This document shows positions 3,044 through 29,634 of a stretch of DNA of 34,193 nt, in pieces (within the stretch, counting starts at the first letter, position 1; each line of letters opens with the position of its first letter). The translations under genes were made by a program, and so were the position numbers. This DNA comes from Bacteroidota bacterium (GTDB taxonomy: Bacteria; Bacteroidota; Bacteroidia; B-17B0; Aurantibacillaceae). The stretch covers positions 1 through 34,193 of the forward strand of contig JACDED010000035.1 in NCBI GenBank assembly GCA_013816615.1, written 5' to 3'. The notes beneath the pieces were generated by a model. The model had not been told where the DNA came from. It saw nothing but the letters and a program-made list of their open reading frames with translations, and ran no database searches.

Positions 3044-3204
3044 AATTGTAAGATTAACTTACTTTTTATTGTGGCTTGCCTTCGGCCCGCGCTTACACAA
3101 GTCAACGCACAGGTCCGCTCAAAAGCACTCTGCGCTTTCGTTTCAATCCTTGTGCTCGTAACTCTCAAAAGGGATTTTTCACTACAATCGTATACGTGCT
3201 ATAA

Positions 3205-3301
3205 GCGTGAGGGATAGAGCCTTTGTTTGAGCTCTTTTTTATGAGCCGGAAGGCAAGTAAAAAAAGCGAGTGGCGAAAGCCCGACCCGAAGGGACACGCC
3301 C
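3205..3301 (+). ncRNA. Multi-hairpin intergenic element (Flavo-1-like?)
   Basis: Between two convergent genes the plus strand can fold as four nested or adjacent stems. An outer GCGTG (3205-3209) pairs with CACGC (3295-3299). Inside it are CTTTTTT (3234-3240) with AAAAAAG (3260-3266), capped by GCC-GGAA-GGC (3245-3254); then GGC-GAAA-GCC (3272-3281), a GNRA tetraloop; then CCC-GAA-GGG (3285-3293). From memory the GCGAAAGCCCGACCCGAAGG portion is a recurrent intergenic motif in Flavobacteria and relatives, possibly Rfam Flavo-1. The identification is not verified. The G+C-richer, non-coding stretch from about 3065, including TTTTTCACTACAATCG, may belong to the same element. Whether it is transcribed is unknown. 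Confidence 0.5.
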
Positions 3302-3333
3302 AAAAAAACTATGATGAAATTTTTTTTATTTTT

Positions 3334-4992: not shown

Positions 4993-5655
4993 ATGTTAGT
5001 TGTTGATCTTATAACGGACGAAATTCCACCACTTAAAACCACCGATACGGTTGAGCTTGCTTTGGACTGGATGGAACAGTTTAAAGTATCGCACTTACCG
5101 GTTGTAAAAGACCGTGAGTTAATTGGCGTTGTTTCTGAAACTGATTTGATGGATTACAATCATCCTGAAGAAACCATTGATGCCAGCAAATTGCATTTAA
5201 TGCGCCCGGCTATTCATTTACACCAACACACTTATGAACTGGTAAAATTAATGACCAGCTTAAATCTAACGCTTATACCGGTTTTAGATGAAGATGAAAA
5301 ATACAAAGGTTGTATTACTTTAAAAGGCATTGTGCAAAATTTAAGTACCATGATCTCGGTACAAAATCCGGGCGGTGTTATAGTTCTTGAATTAAATCAA
5401 AACGATTATTCGGTTACACAAATTGGAAATATTATTGAAGGCAACGACGCTAAAATTTTAAGCTTACACGTTTCATCTCAACCTGATAGTATGAAACTGG
5501 AAGTGACCATTAAAGTTAACCGCGAAGACCTTTCGAGTATCATACAAACATTTAATCGCTACAATTATATTATCAAAGCTACTTATAGCCACAGCGATTA
5601 TGAAACAGGAATGAAAGACCGTTTGAACGAGTTCTTACATTTCCTGAATATTTAA
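4993..5655 (+). CDS. CBS-domain protein with ACT-like C-terminus
   Basis: A 220-residue cytosolic protein. Residues about 1-60 and 65-125 form a tandem CBS pair: VSHLPVVKDRELIGVVSETDL in the first, and LTLIPVLDEDEKYKGCITL in the second. Such Bateman modules usually bind adenine nucleotides. The last third (about 128-205: GGVIVLELNQNDYSVTQIG and further beta-alpha-beta segments) has the look of an ACT-type ligand-binding fold. No catalytic domain is present, so it is probably a sensor or regulator of an unknown partner. In Bacteroidota this type of gene is often beside pdxJ, as here, which suggests but does not prove a link with B6 or nucleotide status. Confidence 0.85.
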   Translation: MLVVDLITDEIPPLKTTDTVELALDWMEQFKVSHLPVVKDRELIGVVSETDLMDYNHPEETIDASKLHLMRPAIHLHQHTYELVKLMTSLNLTLIPVLDEDEKYKGCITLKGIVQNLSTMISVQNPGGVIVLELNQNDYSVTQIGNIIEGNDAKILSLHVSSQPDSMKLEVTIKVNREDLSSIIQTFNRYNYIIKATYSHSDYETGMKDRLNEFLHFLNI

Positions 5656-5668
5656 CCCAAATTTTTTT

Positions 5669-5767
5669 GCCACAGATTTCACTAATTTACGCAGATTGTT
5701 TTTTGTGTTAATGCTTAGTATTTAAGTCTTTTGAAGAAAAATCTGCGGCATCTGTGCAATCTGTGGC
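5669..5767. repeat. Long imperfect palindrome between convergent genes
   Basis: GCCACAGATTTCAC near 5669-5682 and GTGCAATCTGTGGC at 5754-5767 form the outer stem. CGCAGATT (5690-5697) pairs with AATCTGCG, giving a near-continuous hairpin with an A+T-rich centre. Its end abuts the truB stop codon. It is of the same type as the element at 8540-8700 (arms starting GCCAC and containing CACTAATT) and fills the gap between convergent genes. It could serve as a bidirectional terminator or be a mobile palindromic repeat. From memory such GCCACAGATT...AATCTGTGGC repeats recur in Bacteroidota and Chlorobi genomes. Confidence 0.75.
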
Positions 5768-6475
5768 TTAAAGGTTCGCAAATTTTTCCGCAAATTCCTG
5801 CGGCGTTACTGCGTTTGATAGTTTAAAGTCGCCAATGCGCGTACGGCAAAGCGCTGTAAGATGAGCACCGCTGTTTAATGCTAAACCAAAATCGCGGGCA
5901 ATACTGCGAATGTATGTTCCTTTACTGCACACAATTCTAAAACTAACGCTTGGCATATTGACAGATATGATCTCAAATTCTTTAATTTCTACTTCACGCG
6001 ATTTCATCTCCACTTCCTCACCCGCCCTTGCCATTTCGTAAGCCCGCTTGCCATTTATCATTACGGCGCTAAAAATTGGTGGTACTTGTTGTAATATGCC
6101 TGTAAAATCTTTTGCTGTTTGTTGAATTGCTTCTAATGTAATATGTTCGGTTGGAAATGTTTTGTCTACTTCTTTTTCAAGATCGTAACACGGTGTGGTT
6201 GCTCCTAATAAAAATGTGCCCGTGTATTCTTTTTCCATTCCCATTAGATCATTAATGGTCTTTGTTTTTTTACCGGTACAAACAATTAATAAACCTGTTG
6301 CTAAAGGATCAAGTGTACCAGCGTGGCCAATTTTTGGCTTTACTTTTACACCATCTACCATAAAAGAAGGATGATTTTTTATAGCGTGCTTTAATTTGTT
6401 TACCGCCTGAAAACTGCTCCAGGTATAGGGTTTATCGATCAATAAAACTTCGCCTGTATAAAAATTGTAATCCAT
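5768..6475 (-). CDS. truB: tRNA pseudouridine(55) synthase TruB
   Basis: TruB makes pseudouridine 55 in the T loop of tRNAs. The 235-residue sequence has LLIDKPYTWSSF at the N-terminus, the catalytic motif GHAGTLDPLATGLL with the nucleophile Asp56, KEYTGTFLLGATT, and the C-terminal SKGTYIRSIARDFG and LTALCRTRIGDF segments typical of the family. It lacks a long C-terminal PUA extension, as is common in Bacteroidota. Its ATG shares one base with the metF stop codon (TAATG), indicating translational coupling in the nifU-like/metF/truB operon. Confidence 0.97.
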   Translation of the reverse strand: MDYNFYTGEVLLIDKPYTWSSFQAVNKLKHAIKNHPSFMVDGVKVKPKIGHAGTLDPLATGLLIVCTGKKTKTINDLMGMEKEYTGTFLLGATTPCYDLEKEVDKTFPTEHITLEAIQQTAKDFTGILQQVPPIFSAVMINGKRAYEMARAGEEVEMKSREVEIKEFEIISVNMPSVSFRIVCSKGTYIRSIARDFGLALNSGAHLTALCRTRIGDFKLSNAVTPQEFAEKFANL

Positions 6476-7428
6476 TAAAATACTTCCTTCGCTACTTTTT
6501 TAGTAGCCTCAGAAGTACCCATTGTATAAAAATGCAGGCACGGTACATTAGCTTTTATCAATTCTTTGCTTTGTTCAATACACCACTGAATACCTACTTC
6601 CTTAACGGCTTTATCATCCTTACATTTTTCTAACTCTTCATAAAAAGGTTGAGGAATATCGATGTGAAAAATCTTAGGAAGCGTTGTAATTTGTTTTTTA
6701 GTGCTCAGTATTTTTAAACCCGGAATAATTGGAACCGTAATACCGTTATCACGACATAATTTTACAAAATCAAAATATTTTTTATTGTCGAAGAACATTT
6801 GTGTAACAACATATTCAGCACCTGCTTCTACTTTTGCTTTTAAATATTTAAGGTCGCTGATCATATTTGGTGCTTCAAAATGTTTTTCAGGATAACCTGC
6901 AATACCAATACAAAAATCAGTGGGTGCTGCATCTTTCATCTCTTCATCCAGGTATTGTGCACGATTCATTTCTGTAATTTGTTTTACAAGATCCAATGCA
7001 TAAGCATGTCCGCCCGGCTCAGGTACAAAAGCAGGTTCTGTTTTAATGCTATCGCCACGTAAAGCCAATACATTATCAATTCCTAAGAACTGAAGGTCAA
7101 TTAAAGCATTTTCAGTCTCTTCTTTCGTAAAACCGCCGCAAATAATATGTGGTACTGCTTCAACATTATATTTATTCATAATAGCAGCGCAAATACCAAC
7201 CGTACCAGGACGTTTACGAATACTTACTTTTTCTAAATAGCCTCCATCGCGTTTTTTGTAAATGTATTCTTCGCGATGATATGTTACATCAACAAACGCC
7301 GGCTTAAATTCCATTAAAGGATCGATGCCATCATAAATGCTTTGTATACTTTTTCCTTTTAAAGGTGGGAGAATTTCAATAGAAAATAGCGGCTTCTTAC
7401 TTTGAGAAAGCTTTTGTGTTAACTTCAT
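6475..7428 (-). CDS. metF: Methylenetetrahydrofolate reductase
   Basis: MetF reduces 5,10-methylene-THF to 5-methyl-THF with FAD, supplying methyl groups for methionine synthesis. At 317 residues it is near the bacterial family length. It shows FSIEILPP (the catalytic Glu18), VDVTYHREE, VPHIICGGFTKEE, LALRGDS, FCIGIAGYPEKH and the FAD/folate-site segment YVVTQMFFDN, followed by PIIPGLKILS. It starts 8 bases after the nifU-like gene and overlaps truB by one base, so the three are one operon read from the promoter at 7688-7718. Confidence 0.96.
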   Translation of the reverse strand: MKLTQKLSQSKKPLFSIEILPPLKGKSIQSIYDGIDPLMEFKPAFVDVTYHREEYIYKKRDGGYLEKVSIRKRPGTVGICAAIMNKYNVEAVPHIICGGFTKEETENALIDLQFLGIDNVLALRGDSIKTEPAFVPEPGGHAYALDLVKQITEMNRAQYLDEEMKDAAPTDFCIGIAGYPEKHFEAPNMISDLKYLKAKVEAGAEYVVTQMFFDNKKYFDFVKLCRDNGITVPIIPGLKILSTKKQITTLPKIFHIDIPQPFYEELEKCKDDKAVKEVGIQWCIEQSKELIKANVPCLHFYTMGTSEATKKVAKEVF

Positions 7429-7436
7429 AAATTGTA

Positions 7437-7673
7437 TTAATTGACAGAGATAATTTCTTTTATTTCGGGAACAGCGCGTTTGATAGTTTCCTCTATTCCT
7501 GCTTTCATGGTCATATGACTCATGGTACAGGTTTTGCAGGCGCCTTTTAATTCTAATTTAAGAATGCTTCCATCTGTAATATCTATAACTTCTACATTAC
7601 CTCCGTCCGCCTCTAAATAAGGGCGAATAGAATCCAATGCGTCTTCAACTTTTTTATGCAGTGCTGCGTCCAT
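7437..7673 (-). CDS. NifU-like Fe-S cluster scaffold (NFU domain)
   Basis: A 78-residue stand-alone NFU domain. It has the hallmarks IRPYLEADGGNVEVI, then LKGACKTCTMSHMTMKAGIE with the cluster-binding CxxC at Cys46 and Cys49, and a C-terminal helix. Such proteins carry or deliver [4Fe-4S] clusters, probably to apo-enzymes in the cytosol. It is the first gene of the operon with metF and truB and sits eight bases downstream of a complete Bacteroidota promoter, so the 5' leader should be very short. Known relatives are NfuA C-termini and small NifU-type proteins next to Mrp ATPases; no mrp is present here. Confidence 0.93.
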   Translation of the reverse strand: MDAALHKKVEDALDSIRPYLEADGGNVEVIDITDGSILKLELKGACKTCTMSHMTMKAGIEETIKRAVPEIKEIISVN

Positions 7674-7687
7674 CCTCTAAATTTAAG

Positions 7688-7718
7688 CAAAGATACGAGT
7701 AAAGGAGGATTTACCAAA
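7688..7718 (-). promoter_or_regulatory. Promoter of the nifU-like/metF/truB operon
   Basis: On the minus strand TTTG (715-718 of the 7 kb block, 7715-7718) is followed after 19 bases by TATCTTTG (7688-7695), a perfect Bacteroidota consensus promoter. The ATG at 7673 lies 14 bases past the -7 box. Confidence 0.78.
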
Positions 7719-7749
7719 CACAATTCATTTACTTTATTGTGGATTTGAC

Positions 7750-7781
7750 TTGTTAAATGCGTTAAATTTTAAGTACTTTGC
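7750..7781 (+). promoter_or_regulatory. Probable promoter of rlmB
   Basis: TTG (7750-7752) and, after 21 bases, TACTTTGC (7774-7781), a one-base-short version of the -7 consensus. The ATG at 7787 follows within six bases, implying a leaderless or nearly leaderless transcript. Confidence 0.4.
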
Positions 7782-7786
7782 CCTTA

Positions 7787-8521
7787 ATGGAAGAAGACAA
7801 CTTAATTTTTGGTACCCGCGCTGTTCTTGAAGCAGTGGAAGCAGGAAAAGACATTGAAAAAATATTTATTCAAAAAGGCTTATCTAACGAATTATATCAT
7901 CAACTGCGCACCGCATTAAAAGGGCAAACGGTGCCTATTCAAATTGTGCCGCCTGAAAAGTTAAAGCGCATTACCGAGAAGAACCATCAAGGCGTTGTAG
8001 CTTATTTAACTGAAATAAATTATTACAATACTGAAGAGCTTTTAGCAGGCGTTTTTGAAAAAGGAAAGATCCCTTTGGTGTTGATACTTGATCGTGTAAC
8101 AGACGTAAGGAATTTTGGAGCTATTGCGCGTGGTGCCGAATGTGCCGGCGTGGATTTTATTATTATTCCAAGCCGCGGAGCTGCGCAAATTACGGGCGAT
8201 GCCATAAAAACCAGTGCCGGTGCGTTACACAGGATAAAAGTTTGCCGCGAAGATAATTTAAAGAACACACTTGACTATTTAAAAGAAAGTGGTTTGCAAA
8301 TTGTTTCCTGTCATGAAAAAACAGACAACTTAATTTATGCGGCTGATTTTACAAAGCCAAGTGCTATAATTGTTGGCAGCGAAGAAAACGGAATTAGCAA
8401 CGAGTACATTAAACGCAGCGATGTGGAAGTAAAAATACCAATGGTTGGCAAAATAGCATCGTTAAATGTTTCAGTGGCATCGGGTATTGTTTTGTTTGAG
8501 GCAGTAAAACAACGTTTGTAG
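7787..8521 (+). CDS. rlmB: 23S rRNA 2'-O-methyltransferase, RlmB/TrmH (SpoU) family
   Basis: A 244-residue SPOUT-class methyltransferase; RlmB methylates the 2'-OH of G2251 in 23S rRNA. The N-terminal substrate-binding domain starts with NLIFGTRAVLEA and contains KNHQGVVAYLT. The catalytic domain has motif 1 TDVRNFGAIARGAECAG, motif 2 IIVGSEENGIS, and motif 3 IPMVGKIASLNVSVASGI, which make the trefoil knot and SAM site. I chose ATG 7787 rather than the in-frame TTG at 7778 because family members begin two to five residues before the conserved I-F/Y-G. The gene is divergent from the nifU-like operon and ends in a long palindrome. Assignment to rlmB rather than another TrmH-family methylase is likely but not certain. 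Confidence 0.9.
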   Translation: MEEDNLIFGTRAVLEAVEAGKDIEKIFIQKGLSNELYHQLRTALKGQTVPIQIVPPEKLKRITEKNHQGVVAYLTEINYYNTEELLAGVFEKGKIPLVLILDRVTDVRNFGAIARGAECAGVDFIIIPSRGAAQITGDAIKTSAGALHRIKVCREDNLKNTLDYLKESGLQIVSCHEKTDNLIYAADFTKPSAIIVGSEENGISNEYIKRSDVEVKIPMVGKIASLNVSVASGIVLFEAVKQRL

Positions 8522-8539
8522 AAGTAACTCAAAATAAGC

Positions 8540-8700
8540 GCCACTAATCACACTAATTTTCACAAATCTATATGGCTTGCTAGTATTAAATTATTATGTT
8601 TTGTGGAATTTTTATTATTCACAACAACATTGTTGTGAATAATTATTTCCACCAAACAACGCAGGAAAAAGTATTAGTGCTAATTAGTGAAATTCGTGGC
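8540..8700. repeat. Nested long inverted repeat between convergent genes
   Basis: Outer arms GCCACTAATCACACTAATTTTCAC (from 8540; written here only as landmarks GCCAC, CACTAATT, CAC) pair imperfectly with the arm ending GTGAAATTCGTGGC at 8700. Inside, GTGGAA pairs with TTCCAC, and in the centre ATTATTCACAACAA (8614-8627) pairs perfectly with TTGTTGTGAATAAT (8630-8643). The whole spacer can thus fold as one very long hairpin. It has the same arm motifs as 5669-5767 and the same convergent setting. There is no open frame within it. Confidence 0.75.
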
Positions 8701-8728
8701 TAAAAATAATGAGCCCTTAGTGGTTTGA

Positions 8729-9523
8729 TCAAAACACTTTTCTTAAAAATTTTCGTAAAGCTTTGTTGCTCTCTCTTGGCGATTCCAAAAAACCAAAATG
8801 TCCATCGTGTTCTAAATACAAAACACTTTTGTTTTTTATAAATTCTGCCTGCTCTAATAATTGATCATAAGGCAATATATTATCTTCTTCTCCAATTACC
8901 ATCATTATAGGATATTCAACCAGGCCTAAAATAATGTCGCGTCTTGGGCGGTCTCTCATACCATGCAATGCAGCAATAATACCTTTTTTTGGTGTTTGTT
9001 TTGCTATTTCAGTTGCAAAGGCAACCTCTTCTTTTAAATATTTTAAATTTTTTGTGGCAAATAAATTTTTTATAGTTGCTTTTGTATAAATACCGCGATT
9101 AGCTTTTACTGCATTTATTGCGCGAAGGCGGTCTTTTTTCTTTTCTTCACTATCTGCATAAGAAGTACTATGATACAAACACAGGCCTTTCAAATGATCA
9201 GGGTACAGATCGGCAAATGCAAGCGCCACGTAACCACCCATACTGTGGCCAATGATCGCATATTTTTTTAATCGCAAAAAATCCATAACCGATTTTACAC
9301 ATTTAGCCATTAATTCCATACTGTGCGCATAACCCACACACTCTGTATTGCCATGGCCCGGAAGATCAATTGCAATTACCCTGTAAGATCTCGAAAGATT
9401 ATTAATGGTCTTTTCCCAGATCTTATGCGAACCTAAATAACCATGTAAAAGCACAACAACTTTCCCTTTTCCTTTATCAAAAAAAGTAACCTTCTCGTTT
9501 TTATATTTTGTGGTTTTTAGCAT
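8729..9523 (-). CDS. Alpha/beta-fold hydrolase
   Basis: A 264-residue protein of the alpha/beta hydrolase superfamily. Visible are the oxyanion-loop HGYLGSHKIW, IDLPGHGNTE, the nucleophile elbow GHSMGGY, the acidic residue region VIGEEDNILPY, and the catalytic His in HDGHFGFLESP. The order and spacing match lid-containing hydrolases of the BioH/MenH/haloperoxidase type; the substrate is unknown. The frame is open to an ATG at 9637, but a -7 box (TAAATTTG, 9536-9543) lies within that extension and the extension has no family likeness, so ATG 9523 is preferred. It is distinct from the ybfF-like esterase at 3334-4107. Confidence 0.85.
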   Translation of the reverse strand: MLKTTKYKNEKVTFFDKGKGKVVVLLHGYLGSHKIWEKTINNLSRSYRVIAIDLPGHGNTECVGYAHSMELMAKCVKSVMDFLRLKKYAIIGHSMGGYVALAFADLYPDHLKGLCLYHSTSYADSEEKKKDRLRAINAVKANRGIYTKATIKNLFATKNLKYLKEEVAFATEIAKQTPKKGIIAALHGMRDRPRRDIILGLVEYPIMMVIGEEDNILPYDQLLEQAEFIKNKSVLYLEHDGHFGFLESPRESNKALRKFLRKVF

Positions 9524-23824: not shown

Positions 23825-25066
23825 ATGACACGTTTTAAAAATAAAATATGGTTTTTTGCAATATTTCTTATTGCGATCGTTTTTTGTTTTATAGAAGCGC
23901 GTGACAAAGGAGATTTTTATATTTTTTTATCCGCTACCGGTGACCTTAATATTGGAGAGAATTTTTATGAAAACAAATACGTTGACGGTTATCATTATTT
24001 TTATTCGGTTCTATTCGCGCTTTTATTAAAACCCGTTTACTCGCTTCCTTTCTTTTGGTTAAAATTTTGCTGGCTGCTTTTAAACACAGGCATTTATATA
24101 AATTTGTTTTACATGCTTGTTAAAAGCAAAGCTGTGGCTTTGTTGAATGAAAAACAAAAAGTTGTTTTCATCTTTTTAGTGTTTGCTTTTTCGCTGCGTT
24201 TGTTTTTAGATAATATGCACAGCTCTCAAATAACCTTACTCATATTATGGTGCTGTATTTATGGTTTATACCTTATCACAAATAACAAACCTATTAGTGG
24301 CGCGGCAATACTTGCCTTAGGTATAAATATTAAGTTATTGCCTATTGTGTTTTTACCTTATTTAATTTATAGGGGTTATTTTAAAGCGTTTGCATTTACT
24401 GTTTTGTTTTATGCTATTTATTTATTTGCTCCATCTGTTTTTATTGGACATGATTATAATATGAGCTTATTAAAAACATGGCTTGGTTTAATTAATCCTT
24501 CTAATCAAAACCATGTTTTAGATGTGGAAGAAAGAAGCTTTCACGGCCTCTCTACTCTTTTATCAACGCTATTTGTAAAAGATGTGCCGGATGTTTATGC
24601 TCTGCCCTACAAACGCAATATTGCAGATGTAGCGCTTCCAACACTTGGTAAACTACTTTTATTTACACGCCTTGCGCTTGCTGCGTTCACAGTCTATTTT
24701 TTAAAGTGGAAACCATTTATTAAAGCAAGATCGTTCTGGCATCAGTATATCGAAATAAGTTATTTATTATTATTGATCCCTCTTATCTTTCCACATCAAC
24801 AACATTATGCGTTTTTGTTTGCCGTTCCTGCATTTGCTATCGTTTTACTTTATTTAATTTTAAAGAAGAATGAATTATCAAAAACATCTGCGCTCACTGT
24901 TAGCGGATCGTTGATCCTGATCTATTTATCCGTTAATTTAAAATTATTGCTTGGTATGCTTAATCCCTATTACGATCATTATAAGATCTTAACATATGGT
25001 GCTTTATTGCTAATACCCTTATTGGTATGGGTAATAAATAAAAAAGAGATTATCAGAGGTTCTTAA
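23825..25066 (+). CDS. GT-C family membrane glycosyltransferase (GT87/DUF2029-like)
   Basis: A 413-residue protein with about ten membrane helices. The first luminal loop has RDKGDFYIFLSATGDLNIGENFY, including the acidic residue pair expected for polyprenyl-phosphate-sugar transferases of the GT-C fold. Further features are SQITLLILWCCIYG and GINIKLLPIVFLPYLIYRG, which recur in mannosyltransferase-like DUF2029 (GT87) proteins. It probably transfers a sugar from a polyprenyl-phosphate donor on the periplasmic side; donor and acceptor are unknown. ATG 23825 is used. It is divergent from the HTTM gene and its last 14 bases overlap the convergent PKD gene. Confidence 0.85.
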   Translation: MTRFKNKIWFFAIFLIAIVFCFIEARDKGDFYIFLSATGDLNIGENFYENKYVDGYHYFYSVLFALLLKPVYSLPFFWLKFCWLLLNTGIYINLFYMLVKSKAVALLNEKQKVVFIFLVFAFSLRLFLDNMHSSQITLLILWCCIYGLYLITNNKPISGAAILALGINIKLLPIVFLPYLIYRGYFKAFAFTVLFYAIYLFAPSVFIGHDYNMSLLKTWLGLINPSNQNHVLDVEERSFHGLSTLLSTLFVKDVPDVYALPYKRNIADVALPTLGKLLLFTRLALAAFTVYFLKWKPFIKARSFWHQYIEISYLLLLIPLIFPHQQHYAFLFAVPAFAIVLLYLILKKNELSKTSALTVSGSLILIYLSVNLKLLLGMLNPYYDHYKILTYGALLLIPLLVWVINKKEIIRGS

Positions 25067-27275
25067 GTAACGTAACGTGCCCGTAATGTACCTCGTCTTT
25101 TTCGTTAACTACATTTTTAAATGTAATTCTCCATACATATGTATCTTGTTTACATTCCGAGCCTTTATAAAAACCATTCCAACCCTGTTTCGGATTTTTT
25201 GTGCTGAATAATTTTTCGCCCCAGCGGTCAAATATATCAAACTCATAGTTAACAACGCCAATGGCTATTGGCATAAAATAATCATTCAATAAATTTTCAT
25301 CGGGGGTAAATGCATTTGGTATCCAAAACCTATACTCTGGTAATATTCTTACTACTTGCCGTATAGTATCCCTACAGCCAAATTTATTTGTAACAAATTG
25401 TTCTATCAAATAATCGCCATAATCCTGGTATGTATGTTTTTCGTATGGAAAAGAAGAGCCGGTGCCATCGCCAAATAAATATTGCCAATATAAAACATCA
25501 AAACTTGCATTACTGTTAATAGTTATTTCCGGATCAAAAATACTTGTTACCTGTGGCGAGAAAGTAAAGCCGGCATACGGTGATGGATTGACGGTTACGT
25601 TGGTTACCGATACTGCATTTGTATCAATACATAAACTGGTAGTAATAGCACTTAAAGTTACACCGTAAACACCTGTTGGCGTAAATATTTGTGTAGGTTC
25701 AAAAAGTGTAGATGTATTGCCATTACTAAACTGCCAGAAATAGGTCATTGGCAGATCACAACTACTTCCATTACTGAACGCCACTGTTGCGGGGTTACAC
25801 AAACTTGTAGGTAAATTACTTATTTTAGCAATAGGCCGGCCAACTACCCTCACTGTATCAATAAACGAATCAATACACGCAGATTGTTTTGCAATTAATT
25901 TAACATAGTACAGACCTGCGTTTGTATATGTGATACTTGTAGGGTTTTGAAGTGTTGACGTTCCCGGGCTTGCCGCAGATGAAAAATTCCAACTATAAGT
26001 TGTGTTTGCTAAGAATGTTCCGGTTACACTAAAATTAAATGCATTGCCTTTAAAGCATTGTTTTGGGTTTGGTGGAAAGCTTATATCTAATGGCGGATAA
26101 ACATAAAATGTTTTTTGAGTTGTATCAGCACATGGCTTTCCCGGATTTGCAATAAGGGTTACCACGTATGAACCAGTATCTGCATATGTATAATTTGGAT
26201 TCACAAGGTGGGATGTATCTGCATTAGTTGTTGGATCTCCAAAATCCCAGTTAAATTCGGTACCTCCAATACTTTGATTTCCAAAATGAAAACTATTGCC
26301 CATACACTTTGATGGTTGATCGGGGATAACGCTTAGCACTGTAACACTGCAGGTTACAACGTTTATCTGAAAATCGCGGTAATGCGTATTAATTAATTGA
26401 TTATTTCTAAATTCCTGCACACAAACACCAAAAACCCATTGCCCGTTTAAATTTGGTGTACCCACTAAAACTCCTGTAGTGGGATTAATAGAGAAGGCAG
26501 GATTACTTGCAATTGGATAAGCTGAATTGTATGGTGCCTGGAATATAACGGGTAAATACGGTGGTGGTGGTGCTTCCGTAGGGCAAAATGCCGGTGGAGA
26601 TGGACATTGAGGACTCGTTACATTGGGACTTGTATTAAGTGTTGGGCAACATCCGTCTAATCCCTGGAAAGGCGGACAAATAGAATACACCAGCTGATCT
26701 CCGTCTGGATCAGTAGCAGAATGATTAAAAGTGAATTTTAAACCATTACACACAAAAATTGGTGGCAGGTTTGTAAACCTTGGTGAATTGTTAGCAGCCA
26801 CTGCTTCCGGCCCCGGAATATGTGTATAATAAGTTGAGCCTACAAAGCCCGGTGTTACAATATTTAATATGGTATTGTTGCGGCAACATCTTTGGTAAAT
26901 AAGATAATATCCTCCTGCAATTGGTGGAAGATTTAACGTAGTTGTATAAATACCTTGCTCTACACAAATATTGTTTGGAGTTAAAATGCAGGGGTTATTA
27001 ATTGCCGGTGGCACCACAGTTATAATAGGTGCGCCAATGTCAAAAACACCAATTAAATTACTCATGGCATCATAAACAGTTACGTATGCAGGACCTGAGC
27101 CCGACCCCGGAAGCCCATCAAAAGGTGCCGTAACAGAACAATCCCTGTAAATTTTTAAAGTTAAACGGTAATTACCTGCTCCAAGATCATCATATATCAT
27201 TTCTCCGCCAACAATGTGTGTAGCAGATGCTTTAATTGTAAAAAAGCAGATAAGTATAAAAAAAAACTTTTTCAA
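25053..27275 (-). CDS. Secreted PKD protein with T9SS type B sorting domain
   Basis: A 740-residue secreted surface protein. The signal peptide (first 19 residues, KKFFFILICFFTIKASA) is followed by THIVGGEMIYDDLGAGNYRL, the N-terminal domain seen in large Bacteroidota adhesin-like proteins, including the YQRCCRNNT cysteine pair and RFTNLPPIFVC. From about residue 315 come four PKD-like Ig folds (for example NWDFGDPTTNADTSH, YSWNFSSAAS, YFWQFSNGNTS, YWQYLFGDGTG). The C-terminal 85 residues, from YRFWIPNAFTPDENLLNDYF through IFDRWGEKLF and WNGFYKG to HYGHVTLLKN, are the T9SS type B (gliding-motility-associated CHU_C) sorting domain. The start is TTG at 27275; no ATG serves the signal peptide. 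Probably an exported, surface-attached adhesin. It is a tandem paralogue of the next gene. Confidence 0.9.
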   Translation of the reverse strand: MKKFFFILICFFTIKASATHIVGGEMIYDDLGAGNYRLTLKIYRDCSVTAPFDGLPGSGSGPAYVTVYDAMSNLIGVFDIGAPIITVVPPAINNPCILTPNNICVEQGIYTTTLNLPPIAGGYYLIYQRCCRNNTILNIVTPGFVGSTYYTHIPGPEAVAANNSPRFTNLPPIFVCNGLKFTFNHSATDPDGDQLVYSICPPFQGLDGCCPTLNTSPNVTSPQCPSPPAFCPTEAPPPPYLPVIFQAPYNSAYPIASNPAFSINPTTGVLVGTPNLNGQWVFGVCVQEFRNNQLINTHYRDFQINVVTCSVTVLSVIPDQPSKCMGNSFHFGNQSIGGTEFNWDFGDPTTNADTSHLVNPNYTYADTGSYVVTLIANPGKPCADTTQKTFYVYPPLDISFPPNPKQCFKGNAFNFSVTGTFLANTTYSWNFSSAASPGTSTLQNPTSITYTNAGLYYVKLIAKQSACIDSFIDTVRVVGRPIAKISNLPTSLCNPATVAFSNGSSCDLPMTYFWQFSNGNTSTLFEPTQIFTPTGVYGVTLSAITTSLCIDTNAVSVTNVTVNPSPYAGFTFSPQVTSIFDPEITINSNASFDVLYWQYLFGDGTGSSFPYEKHTYQDYGDYLIEQFVTNKFGCRDTIRQVVRILPEYRFWIPNAFTPDENLLNDYFMPIAIGVVNYEFDIFDRWGEKLFSTKNPKQGWNGFYKGSECKQDTYVWRITFKNVVNEKDEVHYGHVTLLKNL

Positions 27276-27290
27276 TGCCTGAAACGAAGG

Positions 27291-27306
27291 GTTAAATTAC
27301 AAAAAA
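27291..27306 (-). repeat. Conserved 16-base leader of the PKD gene pair, copy 1
   Basis: GTTAAATTACAAAAAA, read on the plus strand, is identical to 29650-29665 and lies at the same distance (15 bases) from the start codon of each paralogue. It contains no clear -33/-7 pair. It may be a promoter or translation-initiation element kept from the duplication. Confidence 0.6.
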
Positions 27307-27340
27307 AAAAGCACAGTTTCTAATGGGTTAGCTTGTGCTT
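27301..27340 (-). terminator. Terminator between the PKD paralogues
   Basis: On the minus strand AAGCACA (27340-27334) pairs with TGTGCTT (27315-27309) around a loop that can itself form CTAA/TTAG, and a T-run of ten follows (27310-27301). It lies about 80 bases beyond the stop of the upstream paralogue, and its T-run merges with the leader of the downstream one. Confidence 0.65.
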
Positions 27341-27420
27341 AGATTTAACGTTTAACAAACTGGAGATTGTTTATTTTGGGTCTATTTTAGCTTATTGTGC
27401 TTGTAAAAATGGCTAAATGT

Positions 27421-29634
27421 TTACTCATTTCTTAATAAAGTAACATGCCCATAATGTATCTCATCTTTTTGGCTGACTACGTTTTTAAATGTAATGCGCC
27501 AGGCATAAACATCTTGTTTGCATCGCTCACCTTTATAAAAACCGTTCCAGCCTTTTTTTGTATCGTTGGTTTTAAAAACACGTTCGCCCCAACGATCAAA
27601 TATTTCAAAATCATAATCAACCGCCCCAATTACAATTGGCAAAAAATAATCATTTAATAAATTTTCATCCGGCGTAAACGCATTTGGTGCCCAAAATCTA
27701 TACTCCGGTAAAATTTTTACAACTTGCTCTAATTTGTCCGTACAACCGTACTTATTGGTAACTGTTTGCTCAATTAAATAATCACCATACTCCTGGTAAA
27801 TATGGTATTCAAAAGGGAAAGAAGAACTTGTGCCATCACCAAACTGGTATTGCCAATACAAAACATCATAGCTTGCATTACTGTTAACTGTAATTTGAGG
27901 ATCAAAAATAGTTGTTACCTGCGGCGAAAATGTAAAGCCTGCTTTTGGTCTAGGGCTAACTGTAACGTTGTTTATAGAAACAATGCTTGTGTCTTTACAA
28001 ATACTATCTGTTACAACCGTTAAGGTAACGCCATACACACCAGCAGGTGTAAATATCTCAACAGGTTCATACGCTGTAGAATTATTACCGTTGCTAAAAT
28101 GCCAGTAATAGTTTACAGGCAGGTCGCTACTACTGCCGTTACTAAATGCAACGGTTGCGGGATCACATAAAGCTGTGGGCAGATTATTTATTTTTGCAAT
28201 TGGCCTTCCTATAACACGAATTGTATCTGTTATAGAGTCGCGACAGTTAAATTGTTTGGCCTTTACTTTTATAATATAAGTTCCCGAATTAGTATAAGTA
28301 ACAGTACCCGGATTACTTAGTGTAGAGGTGCTTGGACTTGCCGATGATGTAAAATTCCATTGAAAAGTAGTTTGTGGCAAATAGCTACCCGTTATATTAA
28401 AATTAAACGCATTTCCTTTCAGGCATTGGTCTGCTATTGGTTGCATATCAATTGACATTGGCGGATAAACGCAAATTGTTTTTTGTGAAGTGTCTGCACA
28501 TGGCTTACCGGGATTGGCAATAAGCGTTACAACATAAGTGCCCGTATCTGCATACGTATAATTTGGGCTCACAACATGCGATGTGTCACCGTTTGTGGCA
28601 GGATCTCCAAAATCCCAATTATATGCTGTGCCACCCACACTTTGATTACCAAAAGTAAATGTATTGCCCATGCACTGAGATGGCGGATCTTTTATCACAC
28701 TCTGCACTGTTACACTACAGGTAACCACATTTACCTGAAAATCTCTGTAATGTGTATTTAGCAACACGTTGTTCCTGAATTCCTGTATGCAAATATTAAA
28801 TACCCATTGCCCATTCATATTTGGTGTACCGCTAAAAACCCCTGTTGTTGGGTTGATAGAGAACGCAGGATTACTCGCTATTGGATAAGAAGAAGTATAA
28901 GGCGATTGAAAAATCACAGCTGGATATGGCGGAGCCGGGTTTATAGTTGGACATGTAGCCGGCGGTGAGATGCAGTTTGGTCCGCTTGTTGGTGTATTGA
29001 ATAATGATCCACAGCATGGATCCATTCCCTGGTAAGGCGCACAAATAGAATACACCAGCTGATCGCCATCGGGATCGGTTGCGGAATGGTTGAATGTGAA
29101 TTTTAAACTATTACATATAAAAATGGGAGGCAGGTTTGTAAACCTTGGTGAGCTATTGGTTGCAGCCGCTTCCGGACCTGGAATATGAGTGTAATATGTA
29201 GAGCCAATGGAGCCGGGATTTACAATATTTAATATGGTAACATTACGATTATTAACCTGGTAAATAACATCATAACCTCCGGTAACCGGCAGTAGATTTA
29301 AAGTATACGTGTAAACACCCTGCTCAACACAAACGGTATTTGGAGTTAATATGCATGGATTATTAATTGCCGGTGGAACTGAAGTTACTGTTGGCGAACC
29401 AATATCAAATAACCCGATTTCATTTTGGGCAGCATCATAAACCGATAAGTATGCAGGGCTTCCGTTCCCTATACCATTAAAAGGAGCCATGCTATTACAA
29501 TCCCTGTAAATTTTTAAAGTGATACGATATTTACCTGCACCGAGATCATCATAGATCATTTCGCCCCCTACAATATGCGTAGCAGAAGCTTTTATCACAA
29601 AAAAGCAAACCAATATGAAAAGTAGCTTTTTCAC
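27421..29634 (-). CDS. Secreted PKD protein with T9SS type B sorting domain (paralogue)
   Basis: A 737-residue tandem paralogue of the 25053-27275 gene with the same architecture: signal peptide (KKLLFILVCFFVIKASA), N-terminal domain beginning THIVGGEMIYDDLGAGKY, four PKD folds, and a C-terminal CHU_C sorting domain (WAPNAFTPDENLLNDYF, IFDRWGERVF, WNGFYKG, GHVTLLRN). Long blocks are nearly identical between the copies (for example PRFTNLPPIF and FNHSATDPDGDQLVYSIC). A clear difference is that the YQRCCRNNT cysteine pair of copy 1 is YQVNNRNVT here. The start is GTG at 29634. It has the same 16-base leader 15 bases upstream and is separated from copy 1 by a terminator, so the two can be expressed independently. 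Confidence 0.9.
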   Translation of the reverse strand: MKKLLFILVCFFVIKASATHIVGGEMIYDDLGAGKYRITLKIYRDCNSMAPFNGIGNGSPAYLSVYDAAQNEIGLFDIGSPTVTSVPPAINNPCILTPNTVCVEQGVYTYTLNLLPVTGGYDVIYQVNNRNVTILNIVNPGSIGSTYYTHIPGPEAAATNSSPRFTNLPPIFICNSLKFTFNHSATDPDGDQLVYSICAPYQGMDPCCGSLFNTPTSGPNCISPPATCPTINPAPPYPAVIFQSPYTSSYPIASNPAFSINPTTGVFSGTPNMNGQWVFNICIQEFRNNVLLNTHYRDFQVNVVTCSVTVQSVIKDPPSQCMGNTFTFGNQSVGGTAYNWDFGDPATNGDTSHVVSPNYTYADTGTYVVTLIANPGKPCADTSQKTICVYPPMSIDMQPIADQCLKGNAFNFNITGSYLPQTTFQWNFTSSASPSTSTLSNPGTVTYTNSGTYIIKVKAKQFNCRDSITDTIRVIGRPIAKINNLPTALCDPATVAFSNGSSSDLPVNYYWHFSNGNNSTAYEPVEIFTPAGVYGVTLTVVTDSICKDTSIVSINNVTVSPRPKAGFTFSPQVTTIFDPQITVNSNASYDVLYWQYQFGDGTSSSFPFEYHIYQEYGDYLIEQTVTNKYGCTDKLEQVVKILPEYRFWAPNAFTPDENLLNDYFLPIVIGAVDYDFEIFDRWGERVFKTNDTKKGWNGFYKGERCKQDVYAWRITFKNVVSQKDEIHYGHVTLLRNE

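Follow-up and report, generated by a model that had tools for sequence, protein, structure and literature searches.

Gene-less palindromes of a Bacteroidota bacterium, tied through their arms to GxxExxY nuclease-like genes, point to a little-known type of mobile element in bacteria

Small inverted-repeat DNA of bacteria has been described in several forms. Integron attC sites have conserved outer boxes around a centre that is variable yet paired. Miniature inverted-repeat transposable elements (MITEs) are small, gene-less, intergenic units with inverted ends and with gene-bearing relatives that have common arms, and the repetitive extragenic palindromes and bacterial interspersed mosaic elements (REP/BIME), moved by a REP-associated Y1 (HUH) transposase (RAYT), are extragenic high-copy palindromes that are sometimes arrayed. 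One account (PMC4990558) presents the intervening sequence (IVS) of the Coxiella 23S rRNA as a unit of ~430 nt that RNase III excises, with complementary ends forming a stem, one small S23p four-helix gene inside and heptamer repeats before the start codon of that gene; it terms the unit selfish and suspects mobility. Here we compare with these systems two palindromes found in a stretch of 34,193 nucleotides (hereafter the window; contig JACDED010000035.1, assembly GCA_013816615.1) from a Bacteroidota bacterium of the Aurantibacillaceae, and we report their link to genes of the GxxExxY protein family.

On balance, we regard the window palindromes as non-autonomous (gene-less) members of a group of small palindromic mobile elements that in their full form bear a GxxExxY gene. 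This reading rests on a repeat family, on the conserved word arms of its copies, on their turnover between related genomes and on the physical association of GxxExxY genes with arms of this kind across many bacteria. The tie to nuclease-like genes was unexpected and had not been foreseen by the preliminary description of this DNA, which was made from the letters alone. The features concerned are the following, L036 and L043 being two GxxExxY loci of the same genome.

5669..5767, no strand assigned: element 1, class A (short type), recognised by its sequence, its fold (z -4.41) and its retrieval by the L036 arm
8540..8700, no strand assigned: element 2, class B (long type), recognised by its sequence, its fold (z -5.28) and its retrieval by the L043 arm
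8597..8658, no strand assigned: middle stem of element 2 around the central hairpin, the best inverted repeat of its spacer (score 15.5)
8614..8643, no strand assigned: central perfect hairpin of element 2, 14 pairs with a 2-base loop, by direct reading

Both elements are imperfect palindromes that start with GCCAC and end with GTGGC, as direct reading bears out for the two intervals first described. The fold scores refer to single-stranded DNA, and none of the dinucleotide shuffles folded equally well (0/200 for element 1 and 0/200 for element 2); both palindromes are genuine, beyond chance. Their arms are runs of degenerate words, for example CACAGATT or CACTAATT: those of element 1 (5669-5697 and 5739-5767) contain CACAGATT, CACTAATT and CGCAGATT, and the outer arms of element 2 occupy 8540-8568 and 8671-8700. 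The relatedness proposed for the two holds, since the arms of one match those of the other over 41 nt at 76%; this inverted repeat (I1) is the longest among the 273 pairs detected in the window. The score of the middle stem exceeds the maximum of 12 reached over 150 shuffled spacers. The perfect inner stem of 14 bases noticed earlier in element 2 is present, and counts 13 pairs when a loop of at least 3 bases is demanded.

The own genome of the window contains 8 GxxExxY (TIGR04256) matches at 7 loci, all 7 above the TIGR04256 cut-off. By eye, 7/7 lie between inverted arms, and 6/7 pass a test of their flanks at p <= 0.01. The null of this test consists of dinucleotide shuffles and displaced flanks; it replaced an earlier null drawn from other loci (8/37 at p < 0.01), which was spoiled because those loci carry arms too. 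L036 combines an intact GxxExxY gene with class A arms, L043 combines class B arms with an internally deleted gene in which about one third of the domain is missing, and the five other loci have arms of other words. When arms were used as queries on about 434 kilobases (kb) of own sequence, those of L036 retrieved 5 inverted pairs of less than 400 bases, element 1 included (0.1 for shuffled arms), and those of L043 retrieved 6, element 2 included (0.5 shuffled). The remaining queries gave 1 pair against 0.4 shuffled (L037), 1 against 0.3 (L038), 0 against 0 (L039), 0 against 1.0 for L040, whose query mixes its two arms, and 16 against 2.6 for the A+T-rich arm of L041, the first 6 of these 16 being unlike real arms.

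The same arrangement was found well beyond this genome. Among 37 GxxExxY genes (the 7 own ones and 30 from others of the window's class), 25 stand between significant inverted repeats, against 1/34 when the flanks are displaced by 700 bases. Among 80 named GxxExxY loci, of which 78 were testable (two had too short a flank), the proportion is 53/78, against 0/67 with flanks displaced by 800 bases. Nearly all passing arms are made of short repeated words, such as TTTAACCGCAAAGGGCGCTAAGAAGACGCAAAG at L105 of another bacterium. The tested named loci are mostly from Bacteroidota according to their record titles, and loci that pass also occur in Melioribacter and Melioribacteraceae (L186, L191), Anaerolineae (L244) and Treponema (L243). 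GxxExxY genes were present in 183/295 genomes sampled from the window's class.

Across 20 members, the protein displays an invariant G-x2-E-x2-Y together with D, E-x-K and Q-x3-Y, and 5/5 proteins tested match PF13366 (PD-(D/E)XK). A structure model built from 43 sequences has a mean predicted local distance difference test score (pLDDT) of 96.2. In Foldseek, no PDB structure reached E <= 0.001 (best 1.5e-3), and a search of PDB sequences with the GxxExxY profile gave one match at E 0.32, which is not meaningful. A second structural comparison placed SSO0001, which we take to be a Cas4, at the top (Z 9.8, root-mean-square deviation 3.6, 99 residues), ahead of further folds of the restriction-endonuclease-like type, none of which exceeds Z 8.6. 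The PD-(D/E)XK fold and the invariant D, ExK and QxxxY residues mark GxxExxY as a putative nuclease.

Another small gene occupies the same architecture. Genes of the four-helix family TIGR02436, presumably akin to the rRNA intervening-sequence protein, lie between inverted repeats at 20/33 loci, against 1/33 with displaced flanks (35 loci, L282-L311 and L031-L035, two of them omitted for short contigs); 2/5 own four-helix loci pass the flank test. This is what one would expect if the palindromes themselves were the basic unit, selfish or functional, and GxxExxY or four-helix genes were secondary passengers of the loop, like homing-endonuclease genes in introns, and it agrees with that idea that the gene-less copies of the own genome greatly exceed the gene-bearing ones. 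However, the two proteins go with different kinds of words (GTTATTAG-like for four-helix arms, CACAAAG or CACAGATT-like for GxxExxY arms), which random settling would not give, and we consider passenger genes an unlikely explanation.

Because four-helix genes occupy the same architecture, rRNA intervening sequences and GxxExxY elements can also be viewed within one frame. Compared with the Coxiella account (PMC4990558), the likeness lies in complementary ends around one small gene and in short repeats, as in GxxExxY-bearing elements: such ends enclose one small gene in the gene-bearing relatives (25/37 and 53/78, as above), whereas the window copies are gene-less. The differences from the Coxiella IVS are that the sites of the window family are intergenic, that the linked protein is a GxxExxY of the PD-(D/E)XK fold and that many copies have no gene. 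The resemblance (PMC4990558) would suit a unit that acts as RNA, an IVS-like hairpin excised by RNase III and spread via RNA or recombination. The window copies are not inserted in an rRNA gene but stand between protein genes, and no Rfam model matched within 5500-8900 at E up to 1; we hold such an RNA unit to be highly improbable.

Consistent with the earlier proposal of a repeat family, the window's genome has 122 matches to the motif GCCRCNRATTNCRCNRATT (at most 1 mismatch) where the reversed pattern yields 1, and 40 genomes of the same genus have 1,563 where it yields 63. In the stretches read, 48 paired forward/reverse elements were recognised; these form a motif-based sample and not a full count, as the stretches came from contigs with earlier matches or from places of the motif. 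Briefly, 20 elements belong to class A (<120 bases, like element 1), 27 belong to class B (long, like element 2), and the last one measures 505 bases and has a gene inside. The other 47/48 have the make-up of MITEs, that is, they are gene-less, fall within 50-600 bases (observed 52-199) and have terminal inverted repeats. The elements are not inside genes, in the sense that no called gene extends more than 25 bases into any arm of the 48; three element ends overlap a gene, by 1 to 14 bases. As a separate observation, four class B elements form a head-to-tail array with about 34 bases between them at C75:5627-6268 of the own genome.

Both window elements lie between convergent genes, element 1 between a CBS-domain gene and truB, and element 2 between genes for a SpoU-type RNA methylase and an alpha/beta hydrolase. 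Element 1 abuts a stop codon, as had been noted, because its end at 5767 adjoins the end of the truB frame at 5768. The restriction to convergent spacers that the preliminary description reported is correct for these two but does not extend to the genome, where the 42 classified family loci comprise 21 convergent, 15 tandem and 6 divergent ones (3 unclassified elements omitted, the C75 array counted once and the gene-bearing element kept). Against a baseline of 361 junctions (66 convergent, 233 tandem, 62 divergent, from simple open reading frame calls on 20 own-genome stretches and the window), the convergent excess has a binomial p of 3e-6, and a p of 0.001 against the share of intergenic length. 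The copies thus favour convergent junctions, as anticipated, without being confined to them.

This enrichment, and the persistence of central stems as their sequence changes (described below), would be expected as well of RNA hairpins selected at convergent gene ends, as bidirectional terminators or as mRNA 3' ends. Half of the copies are nevertheless not convergent and 6/42 are divergent, other convergent spacers of the genome bear ordinary terminator-like hairpins (AAAAAGCC..GGCTTTTT) unlike these elements, and the elements are missing at the same junctions in sister species. In addition, termination needs no long conserved word arms. No terminator-like site was detected on element 1 or element 2 by a scan that requires G+C-rich stems and would miss an A+T-rich one, and over 34 copies the right flank is A-rich and not T-rich, the left flank being mixed A/T. 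The role of simple terminators put forward at first thus receives little support, and selected 3'-end hairpins appear distinctly unlikely to us.

The long copies have two layers that behave differently. Compared over lengths of 19, 25 and 30, the outer arms within a copy are no more alike than arms across copies (permutation p between 0.66 and 0.99), and any difference goes towards lower likeness within a copy; since outer arms are no likelier to match their own partner, they look like conserved sequence and not like co-varying partners. Within-copy pairing of outer arms, for which there was no excess at any of these lengths, was therefore rejected. In class B, the middle 40% contains a perfect stem of 8 pairs or more in 19/27 copies, compared with 2.8% of shuffles, and 8/27 are without such a stem. 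These 19 stems represent 16 different sequences, whose sides match at 8/8 positions within a copy and at 2.8/8 between copies. In most long copies, the structure of the centre is kept and its sequence is free; the inner stem of element 2 is one of these structure-only stems. Class B hence resembles attC sites by its conserved outer arms and variable paired centre, but the box sequences differ and the window family is not cassette-borne.

Being palindromic, extragenic, numerous and sometimes arrayed, as in C75, and having no long target duplication, the copies could also be taken for REP/BIME-type repeats moved by a RAYT, and the genome does contain 6 Y1_Tnp matches. None of these 6 loci lies between paired GCCAC-type arms, and two of them (L092 and L094) are ringed by hairpins of other sequence, judged by reading (CCCCTGCCAGGG in L094). 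The window family is, moreover, longer than REP/BIME and two-layered. A RAYT origin is not supported, and we regard it as very improbable. In their own right, L092 (C209) and L094 (C65), RAYT-like genes with their own hairpins, form an ordinary REP/RAYT pair beside the studied family. The comparison with MITEs is limited by the lack of a target duplication of at least 4 bases over 34 copies and by the gene-bearing relatives (L036, L043), which carry GxxExxY (PF13366) and no known transposase.

Orthologous junctions of the same genus were read for the sites of element 1 (site 1, in 13/24 genomes), element 2 (site 2, in 8/25) and L036 (in 20/30), palindromes of other families being named by reading of the letters. 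At site 1, G021 has a palindrome with GCCAC-type arms, G012, G007, G019 and G006 have palindromes of other families, and the remaining 8 genomes have no element. At site 2, the same element as element 2 is found in G007, a short AGATT-type palindrome in G021, other repeats in G019 and an insert of about 850 bases in G012; G006, G004 and G005 have no element, and the spacer of G020 is without GCCAC-type arms. The elements are thus present, absent or replaced by other palindromes in sister species, and they therefore turn over. With the copy number given above, the family is neither rare nor fixed at its sites, and the suggestion of a mobile palindromic unit fits, the movement itself being what we infer. 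Another palindrome of the window (3073-3306, GGCTTGCCTTCGGCCCG ... CCCGAAGGGACACGCCCAA), also between convergent genes, belongs to a different family, which those found at site 1 in G012 and G007 resemble. Elsewhere in the window, two neighbouring genes on the minus strand (25053-29634; 740 and 737 amino acids) are diverged duplicates, with DNA blocks 74-81% identical.

The L036 element is located between two consecutive genes of the same direction. At this junction, a GxxExxY gene is present in G317, G003, G022 (a partial match with a stop), G018 and G011, a lone half arm in G012 and palindromes of other words in G316 and G008; none of these arms was seen in the remaining 12/20 genomes. G003 and G317 have two or three arm copies on a side. 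This operon-internal junction (L262-L281) accordingly contains, depending on the species, a GxxExxY element, a half arm, two other palindrome families or nothing, and it is possible that it is an insertion hot spot.

Several observations weigh against the reading of the palindromes as gene-less copies of mobile GxxExxY elements. Movement was not observed, and at the L036 junction the GxxExxY gene may have been inserted long ago and lost many times rather than having arrived recently. Over the 34 copies, target duplications of at least 4 bases are at the level of chance (2 against 1.6 expected at 4 bases, 1 against 0.8 at 5, none longer); flank matches show a small excess at 2 bases (11 against 7.7) and 3 bases (8 against 4.0), so that a very short target duplication is possible. 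The flanks of L043 reach just p 0.04, gene-less relatives are well supported for just 2/7 own arm families, 25/78 named loci have no significant arms, and 4/53 passing loci (L183, L207, L248 and L249) have repeats that are not word-built. Arm likeness follows protein likeness over 73 loci (r 0.32; 0/2000 permutations as high), which is weak evidence because host relatedness was not removed; this test drops the latter four loci (all passed at p <= 0.01) for their repeats, and L109 because its frame read short. Similarly, across the 40 genomes the number of arms correlates with that of GxxExxY genes (rho 0.73, and 0.56 once genome size and the number of four-helix genes are taken into account) and with that of four-helix genes (rho 0.52, and 0.25 after correction), and these values still include shared ancestry. 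Finally, G012 has 32 arms and no GxxExxY match, and 12 GxxExxY-bearing genomes have fewer than 10 arms.

We propose that the full element consists of a word array (here CACAGATT/CACTAATT), one GxxExxY gene and the inverted word array. The nuclease would recognise the arm words and the folded DNA (hairpin or cruciform), and may drive insertion or copying, also of gene-less elements in trans. Any copy landing inside a gene would be lost, and it is for this reason, we propose, that the survivors gather beside stop codons, mostly between convergent genes. More tentatively, and doubtful as this broader idea still is, GxxExxY elements may form an undescribed selfish class in which one small PD-(D/E)XK nuclease spreads palindromic hairpin DNA without transposase, integrase or reverse transcriptase, the word arrays serving as recognition code and the gene-less hairpins being served in trans; the four-helix protein would be a parallel solution with its own word code. 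No description of such elements was found in the open-access papers searched, most subscription journals being outside the search; there, GxxExxY is named only in passing and PF13366 in a listing, and six arm-word strings were not found.

The position of GxxExxY inside word-built inverted arms, together with large gene-less families, provides this protein with a role that can be tested and would explain many of the palindromes that lie between genes in these genomes. It points to mobile elements of a type so far little known among bacteria.

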